This document shows, in pieces, positions 20,292-27,348 of a stretch of DNA of 36,867 bases (its first letter is position 1; every line of letters begins with the position of its first letter). Location: IMG/VR virus record IMGVR_UViG_3300045941_000051, positions 1-36,867 of that record. The stretch is one strand, 5' to 3'. Position numbers and translations under genes: made by a program. The notes beneath the pieces were generated by a model. It saw only the letters and a program-made list of their open reading frames with translations. It was not told the DNA's origin and did no database searches. The stretch comes from a virus.

Positions 20292-20687
20292 TCACGCCAC
20301 CTCCCTGAGGCCCAGTGACACCTCGCTTCGCCCGACGCCGAACTGATCGCTCCAGTTGCCGTCCCAGACCACGACGTATCTGCCAAACGGCGAGGCCCCG
20401 GTGGGATCGGGCGTGAACGCCGGCTGTGTCTCGCGCGGCACGTAAAAGTAGAAAGGTTGCGCCAGATGATTCCGGAAGAACGTGTAGAGCGTCGAGTAGT
20501 CCGCAGGCTTCACCCGGCGGGTGATCCGCCAGAACCGGCGCGGGTTCGCCGCCAACGCGGCCCGGTCGGAACTGCCGTCCGGATAGCGGTTGACGTAGCT
20601 CTCGATGCGAAGCTCTTCCTCCAGCACGGCATAGAATCCGGCGGGCAGGACATCGACCGGCTGGGCGGGCTGGATGTTACCCGGCAT
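20292..20687 (-). CDS. Minor tail protein, lambda M-like
   Basis: 131 aa, start at 20687 with AGGGGG seven bases upstream. The pattern ..SYVNRYPDGSSDR.AL..N.R.-W.IT.R....DY..L..FF..H....PFYF.V is that of M-type tail-tip proteins, which connect the end of the tail tube to the tip. In lambda the order is H-M-L-K-I-J; here M is followed directly by the fused L/J-like gene. An upstream in-frame ATG at 20723 would overlap the moron leader and lacks a ribosome site. Confidence 0.7.
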   Translation of the reverse strand: MPGNIQPAQPVDVLPAGFYAVLEEELRIESYVNRYPDGSSDRAALAANPRRFWRITRRVKPADYSTLYTFFRNHLAQPFYFYVPRETQPAFTPDPTGASPFGRYVVVWDGNWSDQFGVGRSEVSLGLREVA

Positions 20688-20705
20688 ACGCCCCCTGAAA
20701 CGGGT

Positions 20706-20711
20706 TAAAAT
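20706..20711 (+). promoter_or_regulatory. Possible -10 box for the lipoprotein moron
   Basis: TAAAAT, five of six matches to the consensus -10, lies 23 bases upstream of the lipoprotein ATG on the plus strand. No good -35 accompanies it, so this is tentative. A private promoter is expected for a moron. Confidence 0.3.
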
Positions 20712-20733
20712 AGTACGTCTCAACGGGAACCCT

Positions 20734-21090
20734 ATGAAGTACGCTTTTCTGGCCCTCGCGGCCTTCTCCGCGGGTTGCGGATCTCAACCCCAAAAGCCTT
20801 ACCGCTCGTTGTCGGAGGTCGGCGTGGCCTCGCGATCCGCGTCGGCATACATCGAACAACAGGTGCTGAAAAAAGAATGGCCGCACAACTGGCGCGTCGT
20901 TCATACGCAAGGCGAACCTGATCCGGACCACGTCGGGCGCGTCTGGGTGAAGACCATTGCCGATCCCGCTGAAAAGCAGCATCTGGGTAAGCGCATCGCG
21001 TTCGTTGACTGCACAGTCGATCTCGCGCAAAGTCCGCAGGAGAAGGACCGCATCTTTAACTGCACCTCGTCGTTCACCCGTTCGCGTTAG
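20734..21090 (+). CDS. Phage-borne lipoprotein (moron), 118 aa
   Basis: A plus-strand gene inside the minus-strand late operon. MKYAFLALAAFSAGC is a compact signal peptide with a lipobox (FSAGC, Cys15), so the product should be lipid-anchored in the envelope, in the periplasm or on the surface. The mature part is 104 aa with SLSEVGVASRSASAYIEQQVL, an HxVGRVWVKTI strand and two later Cys (C112-like and C126-like in the longer frame) that could pair. I do not recognise its family. Lysogenic-conversion lipoproteins such as lambda Bor are similarly placed as independent units, and some block superinfection. It is antisense to read-through late transcripts, so it may be expressed mainly in lysogens. 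Confidence 0.75.
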   Translation: MKYAFLALAAFSAGCGSQPQKPYRSLSEVGVASRSASAYIEQQVLKKEWPHNWRVVHTQGEPDPDHVGRVWVKTIADPAEKQHLGKRIAFVDCTVDLAQSPQEKDRIFNCTSSFTRSR

Positions 21091-21092
21091 CC

Positions 21093-24000
21093 TCACGCCG
21101 TCACCGTAGTCGGCTCCAGCAATGCGCTCGACTGCGCCTGCCTGCCTTGGCCTGACCGCGCCGCCGTGGTGTTTGCCGCGCCCACCGCGCCGGGATTGTT
21201 GCCCATCACCTGAATGACCTGACCGCTGAACAGGCTCGTCGCCTGTTGCGGATTGAGTTGCAGGAATAGCGGCTGGTTGTTCGCCAGCGATTGCGCCACC
21301 TGAGTCGTGGTCGTGCCGACGTAGGGGTTCGCCACCAGCCGCCCGCCCGAGTAGACCGGCTGCACCTGGAGCCGGCCCGACGCCGACTGCGCGGAGGTCA
21401 CCGAATACATCGGGCGTGGCAGGCCCGCCGTCTGCCCGGTGTTCAACGCATACAGCCGCACCAGTTCCTGTACCTCCGGACTGAACACCGCCATGCGGAT
21501 GTCGCCGTTGAACCGCTGGTTCGCGATCTCCACGATCTGCGCCTGAATGCCCCTGTCCTGAATGTCGACGCCATAGGCGTTGCGGATCATCTCGCGGACC
21601 TTCTGCTCCTTCGTCTTGCGGAACAGGTTGACGACGCCGACCGTCAACCCCACTGCCGCCCCGACCGCCGCTCCGATCAGTGTGCCGACACCGGGCATGA
21701 TCATGGTCCCGATGCCCGCGCCGGCCAAGGCGCCGCCCAGCGTGGTCATCGCGAGGCCCGAGACGCCCCTGCGCTTGTACCCGGCGGCGAAGAGCATGGC
21801 GCCGCCCCCGGCGAACGCGCCCGCCGGCCCGTAGGCGCCCAGCATCGAGGCGATGCCGAATCCCGCCAGAGCGCCGCCCGCCACGCCCTGAATGTCGGCC
21901 ATGACGCCGCGCTTATTCAGGCTCGACAGGGCCATCGGCAGGCCGACCGCCGCGGCCATGTTGGCGAAGCCGGGGCTGGAGAGGACCGCATTCATCTTTG
22001 CGCGTGCCGGGGCTTGCGACCACGGGATGCTCTTGATCGCGCCGGTCACTGGGTCCTGCATCCGGATCGGCTTGCCGATATTGAAAGCGGTCTTCATTTG
22101 CTGCATCTGCGACATGCGGCTGGTCCCGCCGCCCAAGTTCATCGGCAGCACCTCGCCGTTGCCCCAGTCGCCGCCGCCCAGATACGACTGGCCTTGATAC
22201 GGCGCCACATATGACTCCGTCAAGATGCCCATGCCCGCGCCGGGAACCACTGCGCCCGTCGAGATGCGCGGAGCTTCGGCCTGCGCCTGCCGGGTGAGAT
22301 TGCTGATGGTGCTCCCCAGGATCGCGCCCCAGCCAGTGACGCCCGATGACGAGCCGGTCACCGCCGCCGCGGGAGAGAACGGCGCCGTGCCGCCGCCGCC
22401 GAACACCGGGATCTGCGAACCCAGCGGGCCGGTCTGCACGCCGACTTGCCCGTAGCCCAACATGCCGGTCAGAGCCGCCGCGAGGCGCGAGGTGATGATG
22501 CTCTTGATCGCGTTCAGAATCGACCGCTTGATCACGTCTCCGATGGCCGACCAGACGCTCTTGTTCTTGTCCAAAAGGGCGTCGAACAGTTCGCCCATCA
22601 CGCCCGCGATGGATTGGTAGACCGACCGTTGCTCATCGAGGATGATCTGATTGCCCGCTCTCCAGGCTTCGACGCGCTGCATCTGGATCTCGCGTTCGGT
22701 CTGTAGCCCCAGAGCTTTTATCTGTTGCGTCTGCTTCGCGTCGAATTCATCCAGCCGCGCCTGTCGTTGTTCCGGCGTCAGCGTGCTGGCTTCCAGGTAG
22801 CGGTTGAACTGCTCCCGCGCATCCCGCAACGCGCCCAATTGCGCGGCTTTCACTTGGTTGATAGCGGCGATGTTCGCGTCCCGCACCTCTGCGATCTGCG
22901 CCATCCGCTGTTCCTTCGTCTGCGCCTCGACGGCGGTCACGGTCGCGATGGTGTAATCGCGGACGTAGTTGATCTCGTCGGTCTGCGCCTGCGTCAGGGC
23001 CTCCCGTTGCTCCTTCTCCATCGCGAACAGGGCTTGGTTGACCGACTTCTCCATCGCGATCCTGGCTTCCGCCGACTGCTCGTTGAACTTGGTTTCCTGA
23101 ATCTTTCGATAATCGAGGTTGGCCTGCGTGAACGTCTGCGCCGCCGCCGCCATCTGTCCGAAGAAGTGCGCCCGGTACTCTGGCCTCGCCATCTTCTGGT
23201 TCTCCTCGTAGACCTTCCTGGCGCCATCGACTTGTTTCTGTGTCACTTCGTCGTTGATCCGGATCAGTTCGTCGGCCTGTTGCCGCGCCTCGCTGACGCG
23301 GCTCTCGTAGCCGAGTCCCGCCAGTTGTAATTGCGCCTCATAGGTCGTATCGGGCACGGCTTCCATCTCTGCCATTGCCATCTTTCGCAGATGACTCGCG
23401 GTTTCGAGAGCGGCTTTGATTCGCGCGTTCTTCACGATCTCCGTCTGCTTCAGGGCTTCCGTCGCGACCGCCACCTCCAGGGCCTTCAGGGCGTCGGCAG
23501 TTCCTTTGGCGCTATCGACGGTGTTCTTGAAGTGCTCCTTCCAGGCATAGTTCAGGGCCGCGACCGTCTCCTGCCCCACCTTCAGGTAGTCGCGCTGGGC
23601 GTCGGCCAGAAGCTTGGCGCCATACTCTGTAGCGCGTTTGACCTTCTCCCTGTCGGTTTCCAGTAATTCGTCCCGTTGCCTCTTTAGTTCCTTCAGTTCC
23701 GCAACGGCGGTTCTCAAATCATCGATCAGCATGGACCCATAAGACCGACCGGGATCGGGCACTTTGACGCCAGCCCGCCGCAGTTCATCCGCCATCTTCT
23801 GCGCCTCTGCCGCGAGAGTCTTGCGGTCGGAAAACGCCTTCCGCATCGCCGCCGTTTCATCCGGATCTTCCGCGGTCAGGTACTCATGCATCACATACGT
23901 CAACGCAGTGATTGCGGCTGTAACCGCAAAGACTTGCGGGAGCGAAGCCGCCAATGTGGCGCCGAAGCTGACCGTCGCGACTTCAGCGGCGCCGAACACT

Positions 24001-25061
24001 GTGGTGATCGCGCCGGTCCCGGCGACGAAGTTCACCATTGCGGTAGCCGCCACGCCGACGCCGCTTGCCAGCTTCACAAGGCCAGCGGTGATTCCCGGCA
24101 ATGCCGACCAGAGCGAGAACGCGACCGACACGGCTTTTGCGGAGACGGCCAGCAAGCCAAGCGCGATGGCGGTGTTCTTGATCGGGCCGGGGAGCTTATT
24201 GAAGAGATCGAGCGCATCGCCGCCGAGTTCGACCAGACTCCGCAATTCCTTCATCACTGCGATCAGAGCGGGCGCGAGGGCCATCTCCAGCTTCGCCGCC
24301 AAATCCTCGACGGTCGCCATGAGGCTTTGGAATTGACGACCGGGAAGCTCTCCTGCCTGCTTCCCTGCGGCTCCCCCCGACGACTTTGCCATCACGTCAT
24401 ACGCCATCTGCTCGAATGCCGCAGGACTCATCAGCCGCAGGCTCTGCTGCATCTCCTGCCGGGTCATCTTCAGCCGCTCCGCAAACATCGGGAGCAGCCG
24501 CTCTCCCAACTGCGAGAACGCGCCCACGTCTTCGCCTGAAACAAATCCCTTGGCCGCGATGGAGCGGAACTTCTCCGTCACGTTCATGACCGTCTGCATC
24601 CCCTTGCCGGCCCGCGCCGCCGCATCCACCAGGATCTTGAGCTTTCCGGCTACCAGTTCCGGCGCCACGCCCGCGTTCGACAGATCCTGCGCCGCTTCAG
24701 CCAGCGTCCGGAAGCCGACGCCGCTCTGCACGGCAAGTTCGCGGAGTTGCCGGAAGGCGCCCGCGCCCCCTTCCAGGCTCTCGAAACCCAGGCGCATCCG
24801 GTTCAGTTCGTCGCCCATGACGAGAAGCTGGCGCCCCATCTCCGCGATCCCCAGCCCGCTGATGGCGTCGGCCAGCTTGTCCATCGATCCGGCGGTCGTC
24901 TCGACGCTGGCCGAGACGCGGCTCAAGCCGGCAGAGGTCTTGGTCGTCGCCTTGTCGGCGCTCTCGCCAATCCCCTTCATTTGCTGGTTGAGCTTGTCGA
25001 AACCCTTCTCAGCTTCTGAGGAGCTTAGATCGACCTGGATGTAGATCTTGTTTGCAGCCAT
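21093..25061 (-). CDS. Tail tape measure protein
   Basis: 1322 aa, by far the longest late product besides the tip. The N-terminus (residues 5-60) is a heptad coiled coil (SSSEAEKGFDKLNQQMKG). Residues 90-260 contain the LAVQSG.....L..AA.DL...G and M...A.AAG...-family features of tape measures. A hydrophobic segment around 290-390 could span the host membrane during DNA ejection. A long charged coiled coil follows (about 400-800), then a Gly/Ala-rich region near 1080-1190 with glycine-zipper character (GALAGAGIGTMIMPGVGTLIGAAVGAAVG). Protein length sets tail length. At about 1.5 angstrom per residue, a tail near 200 nm is expected. It is preceded by the G/GT frameshift gene, the invariant context. 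Confidence 0.9.
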   Translation of the reverse strand: MAANKIYIQVDLSSSEAEKGFDKLNQQMKGIGESADKATTKTSAGLSRVSASVETTAGSMDKLADAISGLGIAEMGRQLLVMGDELNRMRLGFESLEGGAGAFRQLRELAVQSGVGFRTLAEAAQDLSNAGVAPELVAGKLKILVDAAARAGKGMQTVMNVTEKFRSIAAKGFVSGEDVGAFSQLGERLLPMFAERLKMTRQEMQQSLRLMSPAAFEQMAYDVMAKSSGGAAGKQAGELPGRQFQSLMATVEDLAAKLEMALAPALIAVMKELRSLVELGGDALDLFNKLPGPIKNTAIALGLLAVSAKAVSVAFSLWSALPGITAGLVKLASGVGVAATAMVNFVAGTGAITTVFGAAEVATVSFGATLAASLPQVFAVTAAITALTYVMHEYLTAEDPDETAAMRKAFSDRKTLAAEAQKMADELRRAGVKVPDPGRSYGSMLIDDLRTAVAELKELKRQRDELLETDREKVKRATEYGAKLLADAQRDYLKVGQETVAALNYAWKEHFKNTVDSAKGTADALKALEVAVATEALKQTEIVKNARIKAALETASHLRKMAMAEMEAVPDTTYEAQLQLAGLGYESRVSEARQQADELIRINDEVTQKQVDGARKVYEENQKMARPEYRAHFFGQMAAAAQTFTQANLDYRKIQETKFNEQSAEARIAMEKSVNQALFAMEKEQREALTQAQTDEINYVRDYTIATVTAVEAQTKEQRMAQIAEVRDANIAAINQVKAAQLGALRDAREQFNRYLEASTLTPEQRQARLDEFDAKQTQQIKALGLQTEREIQMQRVEAWRAGNQIILDEQRSVYQSIAGVMGELFDALLDKNKSVWSAIGDVIKRSILNAIKSIITSRLAAALTGMLGYGQVGVQTGPLGSQIPVFGGGGTAPFSPAAAVTGSSSGVTGWGAILGSTISNLTRQAQAEAPRISTGAVVPGAGMGILTESYVAPYQGQSYLGGGDWGNGEVLPMNLGGGTSRMSQMQQMKTAFNIGKPIRMQDPVTGAIKSIPWSQAPARAKMNAVLSSPGFANMAAAVGLPMALSSLNKRGVMADIQGVAGGALAGFGIASMLGAYGPAGAFAGGGAMLFAAGYKRRGVSGLAMTTLGGALAGAGIGTMIMPGVGTLIGAAVGAAVGLTVGVVNLFRKTKEQKVREMIRNAYGVDIQDRGIQAQIVEIANQRFNGDIRMAVFSPEVQELVRLYALNTGQTAGLPRPMYSVTSAQSASGRLQVQPVYSGGRLVANPYVGTTTTQVAQSLANNQPLFLQLNPQQATSLFSGQVIQVMGNNPGAVGAANTTAARSGQGRQAQSSALLEPTTVTA

Positions 25062-25083: not shown

Positions 25084-25443
25084 TCACCGCTTGGACTGCT
25101 TGCGGATCTCTTCGGTCTGAAACTTGTCGCGCTCTTCGACCAGTTGCCGAAGCAACAGAAAATCCGGATAGGGGATATCACTCAGCCGCAGGGTCACGCC
25201 CGTCTGGAGCGCGAAGTCCAGATCGATCACGACCTGGATCAGCAAACCGCCAGGAGACGCCAAATATCTCTGGAGGGCCTGCCGCGGGCAGAGCTCGCAT
25301 GGCATAGCGGAAGGCCCTGCGTCTGGCTCCTCTGTCAGCACGTCCGGACAGTTCATCGGCTGGGGGCACAGATCCTTCTGCCGCAACATGCGATGGAATA
25401 TGAACCGGGGCGAAGGCCATTCCGGCCAATCCCCGGCGGTTAA
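25084..25443 (-). CDS. T part of the G-T tail-chaperone fusion (translated by -1 frameshift)
   Basis: This -1 frame is open from 25452 to the stop at 25084, giving a 119-residue extension after the shift and a fusion of about 322 aa. The only internal ATG (25389) has no ribosome site, so independent translation is unlikely. In lambda, gpGT made by the same logic coats the tape measure and recruits tube subunits. The extension has a Cys pattern, C-x5-C and C-x2-C about 22 residues apart, that could bind zinc, and a charged C-terminus (EERDKFQTEEIRKQSKR). It ends 23 bases before the tape-measure ATG. Confidence 0.75.
   Translation of the reverse strand, partial: LTAGDWPEWPSPRFIFHRMLRQKDLCPQPMNCPDVLTEEPDAGPSAMPCELCPRQALQRYLASPGGLLIQVVIDLDFALQTGVTLRLSDIPYPDFLLLRQLVEERDKFQTEEIRKQSKR
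25404..25437 (-). promoter_or_regulatory. Stem-loop just downstream of the frameshift site
   Basis: In the minus-strand RNA a 7-pair stem (GCCGGGG with CCCCGGU, the outer pair a G-U wobble) encloses a second GGCC/GGCC stem with a 5-base loop. It starts two bases after the G stop codon, the position expected of a stimulatory element for -1 frameshifting. Confidence 0.6.
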
Positions 25444-25451
25444 AAACTTTC
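25440..25451 (-). other. -1 programmed frameshift site at the G stop codon
   Basis: The 0 frame reads GAA AGU UUU UAA. The -1 frame is blocked by UGA at 25455-25453, so the shift must occur in these last four codons. The simplest event is slippage of tRNA-Phe from UUU to the overlapping UUU while the stop codon is in the A site. The next codon read is then UUA. It is not a canonical X-XXY-YYZ heptamer. Slippage by RNA polymerase on the five T residues is an alternative. Confidence 0.65.
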
Positions 25452-26051
25452 GTCATCCTTCGGCCCGTATTCGAGATCGATTTCCTCCAGCACCGAACGC
25501 GCGACCTCATGCTTGTGCGGCATCGGAATCGCGCCATCGGCATAGTCGTCCGACCGCCCGCCGCAGTCGTCGTAGATTTTCGCGGCCACCCCTTGGTTGA
25601 AGATGGCGTGCTGCTGATTGTGCGGAAGGTCCAGCCGGCGCACCGCTGACCGGCGGTAGAGGCTGGCCTGATCGGCGGTCGGGATTCGCATGGTGTGCTT
25701 CACCGTTCCGCCCAGCACGCGCATCTCGACGGCGGCTTCCAGCCCCTCCAGCTTCACGCTGGTCACTTGCGAGATCGAGAGCGTGTCGAGCAGCTTCGAC
25801 GCTTCGGCGGGCGTCAGCGTCGGCATTCCGTTCAACGCGATCTTCTGGCAGAGTTGCACGTCGGCCTCGCCGGGGGCCGGCGGGATCGTCTCCGAGACGC
25901 CGCGCCCTAGTTGCCGCACATTGAACCGCTTCGACCGCAGATACGCGCCCCACTCCTCGTCGGTCGGCCAGCGGACGCCGATCTCCTCGAGCTTGTTGCC
26001 GCTCGACTGGACACGCGCGGAGATGTAGATTTCCGATTTGATGTCGAACAT
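25440..26051 (-). CDS. Tail assembly chaperone, lambda G-like
   Basis: 203 aa, with the ATG at 26051 overlapping the stop of the membrane-protein gene (TAATG) and GAGGG upstream. It has the shape of a tail chaperone: an N-terminal strand (MFDIKSEIYISARVQ), a WPTDEEW..-YLR recognition region, a helical TLTPAEASKLLDTL part and an acidic C-terminus (LEEIDLEYGPKDDESF). Chaperones of this type bind the tape measure before tube polymerisation. Identification rests mainly on position between tube and tape measure, and on the frameshift at its 3' end. Confidence 0.7.
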   Translation of the reverse strand: MFDIKSEIYISARVQSSGNKLEEIGVRWPTDEEWGAYLRSKRFNVRQLGRGVSETIPPAPGEADVQLCQKIALNGMPTLTPAEASKLLDTLSISQVTSVKLEGLEAAVEMRVLGGTVKHTMRIPTADQASLYRRSAVRRLDLPHNQQHAIFNQGVAAKIYDDCGGRSDDYADGAIPMPHKHEVARSVLEEIDLEYGPKDDESF

Positions 26052-26200
26052 TAGACCCTCGCGGTGACCAGCCACGCCAGCGTGAGAAGCGCGAGGCCAG
26101 CGGCCACCCAGTTGATCGACCGATTGGCGGGCCACTGCGCGTTGACGGTTCCGATCAAAAACATCAACAGGCCCAGGATCACTAAGACGCTTACGACCAT
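26051..26200 (-). CDS. Two-helix membrane miniprotein, 49 aa
   Basis: The ATG at 26200 follows a very strong AAAGGAGGAGG site placed across the end of the tail-tube gene. Almost the whole product is hydrophobic: helix 1 VVSVLVILGLLMFLIGTV, a short turn with QWPANRSIN, and helix 2 WVAAGLALLTLAWLV, ending ARV. A membrane hairpin is the likely fold. The gene is unexpected in the tail module. It may be a holin-like or superinfection-exclusion protein; no lysis cassette is seen elsewhere in the window. Both are inferences. Upstream in-frame starts would extend it into tube-gene shadow sequence. Confidence 0.6.
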   Translation of the reverse strand: MVVSVLVILGLLMFLIGTVNAQWPANRSINWVAAGLALLTLAWLVTARV

Positions 26201-26211
26201 GACCTCCTCCT

Positions 26212-27348
26212 TTAGGTAAGTCCGAGGATTCCGGACTTCTCCGTCGTCGCGGAGAGCGTCACGTAGTCGCCGGTCGGCGGCTTGAGCGGCGTGACGACGC
26301 AATCGACGGTGACGATGCCATCGGCTTCGCCGTTCACGACGGCAGTGAAGACGGCGCGAGGGAAGGTGACGGTGAAGCCGTGCTTGCCGGGACCGGCCCC
26401 GATGGTCGCCCCGGTCGTGCTAATGGTGACCGACCCTTCGTTCCCCGGCGCCGGCGTCATCAGCAGAGCGTATTCGGGAGAGCCTTTCAGAGCGCGGGCG
26501 ACGAAGCGCAGGCTGCACTCGCGGGAGCCGTACTCCATGCGTCCGCGAATCGCGTAGCCGTTCTGGACTCCCGAACCTGGATACAAACCGGACGGCAGGC
26601 GCACGTTGTTCCCCCAGCGAAGCTCCGCGGAGATGAACGACGCCGACATCACGTAGTCGATCCCCAGGATGCTGATGGTCGCGCTGGCCGCGTTGAGAAA
26701 GTGTTCCGGCTCGATGGCCGGCCACGGCGTGATGCCGGATGGCGCGATGGTCTTGCCGGTGCCAACGCAGTTGACGGCGACACGGCAATTGGCGCGGCCA
26801 GGTCCCGACTCCATCGTCAGCGTCCAGTCGTTGACGACCATGCCCACCATCGCGCGGTCCACGACCGAATCCGGCTGGGGCCGGATCTGCTCCGCGTAGG
26901 TGAACGCCGGGAGGTTGAGACAGTTCACGACGGGATCGGACGGCACTGCGGTGTAGGTATTGCCGGTCTTGGTCGCCTTGCCGGTTGTGAAGCAAAAGAG
27001 CCATGCGAGGAATTCCGACGAGCAGAACTTCTCAATGGTGGCGGCGGTGTCGATGGAGGTCGGAAACGTGGCAGTCGGAAACTCGTCGCCTTTGCCGATG
27101 TCGTCGGCGTCGGTTTCGTTGATGGGCGTAACCACGCCGAGGGCCGGGTTGGTCTTGGTGAGGGACCACATTTCCGGCGGCGTGTTCGGCGTCGGCAGAT
27201 CCGGTTGCGGAACGAAGCCGAAGGCAATCTTGGTTTCGCGGACGTTGGCGGGACAGGAAGTGGGTCCTGCCAGGATATCGGGACCTACCGGCGGCGGCGC
27301 GTCGAGCGGCGCGACGGGCGCATTGTGCGCGGGCGGGCGTGTAGCCAT
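26212..27348 (-). CDS. Major tail (tube) protein
   Basis: 378 aa. A Pro-rich N-terminus (residues 1-35) is followed by a beta-rich body with repeated strand-turn elements (DWTLTMESGPGRANCRVAVNCVGTG ... GIDYVMSASFISAELRWGNN ... MEYGSRECSLRFVARALKGSPEYALL ... GFTVTFPRAVFTAVVNG). This is the internal pattern of tail-tube proteins, in which two or more tube domains can be fused. It is longer than lambda V (246 aa). It sits where V is expected, between a U-like terminator protein and the chaperones. GGAGA lies eight bases upstream of the ATG. Function by position and fold pattern. Confidence 0.75.
   Translation of the reverse strand: MATRPPAHNAPVAPLDAPPPVGPDILAGPTSCPANVRETKIAFGFVPQPDLPTPNTPPEMWSLTKTNPALGVVTPINETDADDIGKGDEFPTATFPTSIDTAATIEKFCSSEFLAWLFCFTTGKATKTGNTYTAVPSDPVVNCLNLPAFTYAEQIRPQPDSVVDRAMVGMVVNDWTLTMESGPGRANCRVAVNCVGTGKTIAPSGITPWPAIEPEHFLNAASATISILGIDYVMSASFISAELRWGNNVRLPSGLYPGSGVQNGYAIRGRMEYGSRECSLRFVARALKGSPEYALLMTPAPGNEGSVTISTTGATIGAGPGKHGFTVTFPRAVFTAVVNGEADGIVTVDCVVTPLKPPTGDYVTLSATTEKSGILGLT

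Follow-up and report, generated by a model that had tools for sequence, protein, structure and literature searches.

The window, i.e., the whole 36,867-base virus record, carries its structural genes on the minus strand in the order terminase, portal, protease, lambda-E-like capsid protein, and then the tail genes. Between the presumed tail tube gene and the tape measure gene lies a gene with an extension in the -1 frame, the arrangement expected for a G/GT pair (Table 1). The 3' end of the 0-frame gene reads GAC GAA AGT TTT TAA (25454-25440, minus strand). The -1 frame is open from 25452, 10 bases before the 0-frame stop, to a TGA at 25086-25084, and a fused product would have 322 aa. An earlier note on this DNA had placed the shift in the few codons ending GAA AGU UUU UAA, with the -1 frame open only from 25452 and no X-XXY-YYZ heptamer in reach, and all of this agrees with the minus-strand sequence: the last upstream -1 stop is the TGA at 25455-25453, the heptamer A AGT TTT (25449-25443) does not fit X_XXY_YYZ, and the stretch delimited by the two stops (25452-25440) offers no -1 slippery element other than U_UUU (25446-25443). 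An assembly error in the T run or in AGT is unlikely, since two other contigs are identical to the window over this region; three more are at 70% identity.

Table 1. Features at the putative frameshift site and in the neighboring tail genes of the window.
Feature	Coordinates	Strand	Basis or remark
Predicted tail tube gene	26212-27348		Assigned by position and size
0-frame gene, 203 aa, gpG-like position, putative tail assembly chaperone	25440-26051	-	Translation; gene order; 132 distinct relatives
AAGGA, possible Shine-Dalgarno-like stimulator, 9 nt upstream of U_UUU	25456-25460	-	-5.5 kcal/mol with anti-SD
-1-frame TGA, upstream limit of the shift window	25453-25455	-	Last upstream -1-frame stop
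Degenerate heptamer A_AGU_UUU	25443-25449	-	Relatives mostly A_AAU_UUU
U_UU.U slippery tetramer, invariant core	25443-25446	-	NNU UU(U/C) + stop in 71/71 U-type sites
0-frame stop UAA, directly 3' of the slip codon	25440-25442	-	Stop adjacent in 71/71 U-type sites
Two-tier stem-loop, 5 nt from UUU and 2 nt from the stop	25404-25437	-	RNAfold
-1-frame extension, gpT-like (T domain), 119 codons from TTA after the slip	25087-25443	-	Codon periodicity
Tape measure gene	21093-25061		Pfam TMP_3, match below cutoff

Relatives were collected from viral contigs and Acidobacteriota genomes, mainly with chaperone profiles in which the downstream domain was not part of the query; a scan with a T profile added others. 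After removal of copies 132 distinct sequences remained, and the T domain is found in the -1 frame in every one of them. A genome scan with the wider chaperone profile found 12 loci, of which one belongs to Anaerolineales and the other eleven to Acidobacteriota, mostly Bryobacteraceae; querying the genomes with T domains from two sequences had yielded none. A tree built from both proteins shows two lineages, the window belonging to lineage 1. Among GenBank phages, tblastn returned no relative of either lineage: in 50,697 phage records nothing scored better than E 0.9, and the two hits at that value were set aside as noise, their match straddling the join of a tail tube and a chaperone gene. 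Acidobacteriota genomes harbor tail modules of lineage 2 (loci L170-L181), one of which (L177) is in the near-complete genome of Bryobacterales bacterium F-183. These modules are probably prophages, and from them one may guess that the host of the window phage is also a member of the Acidobacteriota.

Comparison of the relatives indicates that the -1 frame is coding from the slip onward. Pairwise differences are enriched in third positions of the 0 frame up to its last codons and in third positions of the -1 frame from the stop on. The peptide directly after the slip is conserved in the alignment as L.G(G/D/E)WPE.PS.RF, and the T domain has four conserved cysteines, spaced C-x5-C or C-x4-C and then C-x2-C, which suggests a metal-binding site.

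The same comparison points to conservation of the slip site and its adjacent stop. In 71 of the 132 sequences, including the window, the 0-frame gene ends in NNU UUU or NNU UUC followed at once by a stop (the U type), so that the alignment of the T run recommended by the earlier note shows U_UUY and the stop kept in 71/71 sites. The stop itself varies (UAG 49, UAA 19, UGA 3). The penultimate residue is likewise variable (N, S, D, G, F, L, I, H, T, A, or V), while the third base of its codon is U in 71/71, compared with only ~11% of codons overall. With the encoded amino acids and the codon usage taken into account, U at all of these third bases has a chance probability of ~10^-50, a figure that assumes independence and is overstated by relatedness. 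This ending is not a chance occurrence, since just 4/394 ORFs (1%) taken from these loci as controls end in T_TTY and a stop, compared with the invariant U in all 71 sites. The remaining 61 relatives carry C_CCA_AAC or G_GGA_AAC, with the stop adjacent in 48/61 and one codon further in 13/61. One site of this second type (L197) lies inside the U-type lineage of the window and twelve U-type sites lie within the other lineage, which indicates that the slippery sequences replace one another at the same place.

Taken together, these comparisons strongly support frameshifting as such, and very probably ribosomes slip back by one base on UUU exactly at the stop to give the longer fused protein. We consider it highly probable that the locus encodes a programmed -1 frameshift producing a G/GT-type pair, and favor as its mechanism a hairpin-stimulated slip of P-site tRNA-Phe at the stop. 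In most cases translation would end at UAA with release of the 203-aa protein. In a smaller share of ribosomes, with peptidyl-tRNA-Phe on UUU, the A site occupied by the stop and the mRNA entrance by the hairpin, the tRNA would slip one base back onto the overlapping UUU (U_UUU), after which UUA would be read as leucine, followed by 118 further codons of the fusion. We infer the production of this fusion and its rate, as well as the involvement of a single P-site tRNA. By gene order, the two products would be a tail assembly chaperone and its extended form.

A slip of UUU with UAA in the A site had already been suggested in the earlier note; the conservation of UUU beside the stop is now evident in the relatives, and the placement of the slipping tRNA in the P site is the interpretive part of that suggestion. 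It is favored because UUU re-pairing and the stop are invariant while the XXX half of the heptamer is often lost. The competing explanation is tandem or A-site slippage before translocation, in which tRNA-Ser (on AGU) and tRNA-Phe move together, Ser mispairs on AAG, and the stop is uninvolved. Several observations speak for it. The canonical A_AAU_UUY occurs in 46 of the 71 U-type sites, where A always precedes AAU (Fisher p 1e-10), and three further sites retain XXX as G_GGU or U_UUU, so that a canonical heptamer is found in 49/71; in two relatives XXX is retained through coordinated change (G_GGU). Poor re-pairing may also be tolerated, as PEMV keeps 36-40% of frameshifting when P-site re-pairing is blocked (PMC4737148). 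Against these stand the loss of XXX in 22/71 sites, including the window, through a history of at least 11 changes between canonical and non-canonical forms (by parsimony on a quick tree with several unsure branches), the site of L115 (U_GAU_UUU), where the upstream tRNA would have UGA to re-pair with, and a stop that changes its identity and never its adjacency. The adjacency is complete for the U type versus 48/61 for the other type, in support of a single-tRNA slip. The same sequence pattern would result from a P-site slip at the stop and from a slip in the A site in the preceding step, with the P-site tRNA mismatched, and we regard the tandem explanation as possible though somewhat doubtful for the window. 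The 46 full heptamers suggest that tandem slippage is at least ancestral or common in the family. The earlier note called a stop-assisted slip unusual. The site is indeed non-canonical in the window, but it is no isolated oddity, being one base away from the A_AAU_UUU form of those 46 relatives, among them the near relative L014. Assistance by the stop codon is suggested by its invariant adjacency and by plant-virus precedents described below.

Alternatively, the downstream frame could be a separate protein begun near the stop by termination-reinitiation, for example from the ATG at 25389-25387. Such coupling is common in bacterial operons, and a possible start in the right frame (ATG, GTG, or TTG) no later than the WPE motif is present in 5/132 relatives, an example being a TTG that overlaps the stop. 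In the window, however, none of these codons occurs before codon 20 of the extension, and the ATG is replaced by CTC in L004-L006. Within 60 codons 34/132 relatives lack any of the three, and L078 has none before codon 106. A start and ribosome site belonging to the downstream frame were sought in the 132 relatives and not found, the ribosome site not being conserved, while GDWPE.PSPRF, a peptide ahead of any start, is under coding constraint. With codon periodicity passing into the -1 frame at the stop, and with start codons not conserved, reinitiation is very unlikely. Even less probable is transcriptional slippage. The T run that could permit it has five bases before an A interrupts it, which is short for a process that usually takes place on longer runs, and the C_CCA_AAC-like sites of 61 relatives have no such run. 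That the downstream frame is a decayed remnant or an assembly frameshift error, for which the out-of-frame layout is the sole argument, has a negligible probability and is refuted by 132 distinct sequences of identical layout, which come from many metagenomes and from Acidobacteriota genomes.

Next, we examined the elements that might stimulate the slip of tRNA-Phe. The earlier note described a two-tier stem-loop starting two bases after the stop. Its position holds (25437-25404), and the 5-nt distance from UUU falls within the 5-9 nt usual for a downstream structure. RNAfold gives -26.3 kcal/mol for the 73-nt stretch carrying it. In the window alone the hairpin is modest and not significant, with a z of -1.36 versus shuffles and about -0.8 versus synonymous recodings, and its support comes from the relatives. 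Since the hairpins of the window and L005 pair in shifted registers, stability was tested against synonymous recodings that keep the -1 peptide. The mean z of the post-slip fold is -0.56 in lineage 1 and -1.64 in lineage 2, means that are not independent as the sequences are related. Of 12 segments along T, the post-slip segment is the most stable (in kcal/mol) in both lineages; in z it is the lowest in lineage 2 and ties with the next segment (-0.60) in lineage 1. This comparison indicates that the hairpin is under selection in the relatives. An upstream Shine-Dalgarno-like element is an optional stimulator in bacteria. Lineage 2 sites have a strong one at the usual spacing, with a mean of about -7 kcal/mol, whereas the average site of lineage 1 has none; the AAGGA of the window is possibly fortuitous, since it is not conserved in that lineage. 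U-type sites inside lineage 2 (e.g., L239, L240, and L247) have a very strong upstream Shine-Dalgarno-like stretch (CAGGAGGAT, about -10 kcal/mol), and those of lineage 1 differ in having no stretch of such strength. Compensation of non-canonical sites by a stronger hairpin or Shine-Dalgarno-like element was also considered and rejected (mean SD -2.4 vs. -2.1; fold z -0.54 vs. -0.56), the groups being alike.

A -1 shift at this gene position has long been known from G/GT of phage lambda, where it takes place at G_GGA_AAG and has widespread counterparts, and -1 frameshifts of phages are usually explained by tandem slippage on X_XXY_YYZ. The locus described here resembles lambda G/GT in the location of the gene between tail tube and tape measure genes, in a -1 shift near the end of the first gene, and in the fused C-terminal domain, and the lineage 2 heptamers C_CCA_AAC and G_GGA_AAC are closely similar to that of lambda. 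It differs in that the slip codon abuts the stop, the window has no XXX half, and the proteins gave no significant match to a chaperone family or fold.

Stop-adjacent U-run sites are already known in plant viruses. The RdRp frameshifts of umbraviruses and related plant viruses use G_GAU_UUU (PEMV), A_AAU_UUU (GRV), or G_GGU_UUU (BYDV), located next to a UAG or 3 nt before it and followed by a stem-loop, with a 5-nt spacer in PEMV; only tRNA-Phe re-pairs fully in PEMV, and the stop contributes to the frameshifting rate (PMC4737148). The phage sites share with these the same heptamers beside a stop, the PEMV spacer length, and the stem-loop. The umbravirus sites, however, function on eukaryotic ribosomes in an RNA virus polymerase gene, and the resemblance is convergent, not homologous. 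A shifty stop in potato virus M, AAAA-UGA, works by P-site slippage and is reported to function with any stop codon and to fail with a sense codon (PMC4737148); it is similar to the slip proposed here in that one P-site tRNA moves by -1 at a stop, although the slip codon is different and the virus infects plants. The tetramers U_UU.U and U_UU.C promote -1 frameshifting in E. coli when a pseudoknot lies downstream, and they occur in IS elements (PMC4066793). The U_UU.U/U_UU.C core is common to the phage sites and to the Z_ZZ.N tetramers of E. coli and IS1/IS3, but in the latter a sense codon follows and a pseudoknot stimulates, whereas here the stop is adjacent. The PRFect motifs 'five' and 'twofive' are proposed non-canonical slippery runs for chaperone frameshifts in SEA-PHAGES genomes (PMC10885494); unlike the present sites they were inferred from annotation, and adjacency to a stop is no part of the motif. 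A search of the open-access literature, which covers older work thinly, yielded no phage chaperone gene described as having a single-tRNA -1 site next to its stop.

There is about an even chance that this family, in phages of Acidobacteriota and their kin, uses a stop-assisted slip of a single P-site tRNA-Phe on U_UUY, has switched repeatedly between tandem and single-tRNA slippage while keeping the stop adjacent, and so parallels, in bacteria, the sites of umbraviruses and potato virus M. If so, viruses that infect bacteria and viruses that infect plants would have reached the same site design. The 71 related sites form a natural series from the full heptamer to U_UUY alone, with the stop always adjoining, and the sister lineage would achieve the same with C_CCA_AAC and a Shine-Dalgarno-like element. 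These natural variants make the contributions of P-site re-pairing, the stop codon, and the release factor directly testable.

The earlier note referred to the 0-frame gene as a tail chaperone gene, a designation to which gene order and the frameshift itself point, whereas searches of protein families and folds gave it no backing. Pfam and PHROGs searches with both proteins and 38 chaperone relatives returned nothing of note. The AlphaFold models of both proteins are good (pLDDT 94 and 89), and neither found a significant match with Foldseek or VIA-align (best VIA Z 4.2). The protein family is unannotated and overlooked by standard libraries.

Two neighboring genes of the window were also recorded. 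A small gene on the minus strand at 26051-26200 (MVVSVLVILGLLMFLIGTVNAQ..., ~49 aa), between the presumed tail tube gene and the putative chaperone gene, encodes two likely membrane segments, and its TAA overlaps the chaperone ATG (TAATG). L006 has a similar ORF in the corresponding position. One would not expect to find a membrane protein in a tail operon. Just past the tape measure gene, a lone gene on the plus strand (20674-21090), opposite to the tail operon, has a lipoprotein-like start (MKYAFLALAAFSAGCGS). Its counterpart in L006 (8116-8565, minus strand) has a membrane-anchor-like start, and the pair looks like a moron gene with a fixed place and changing content.
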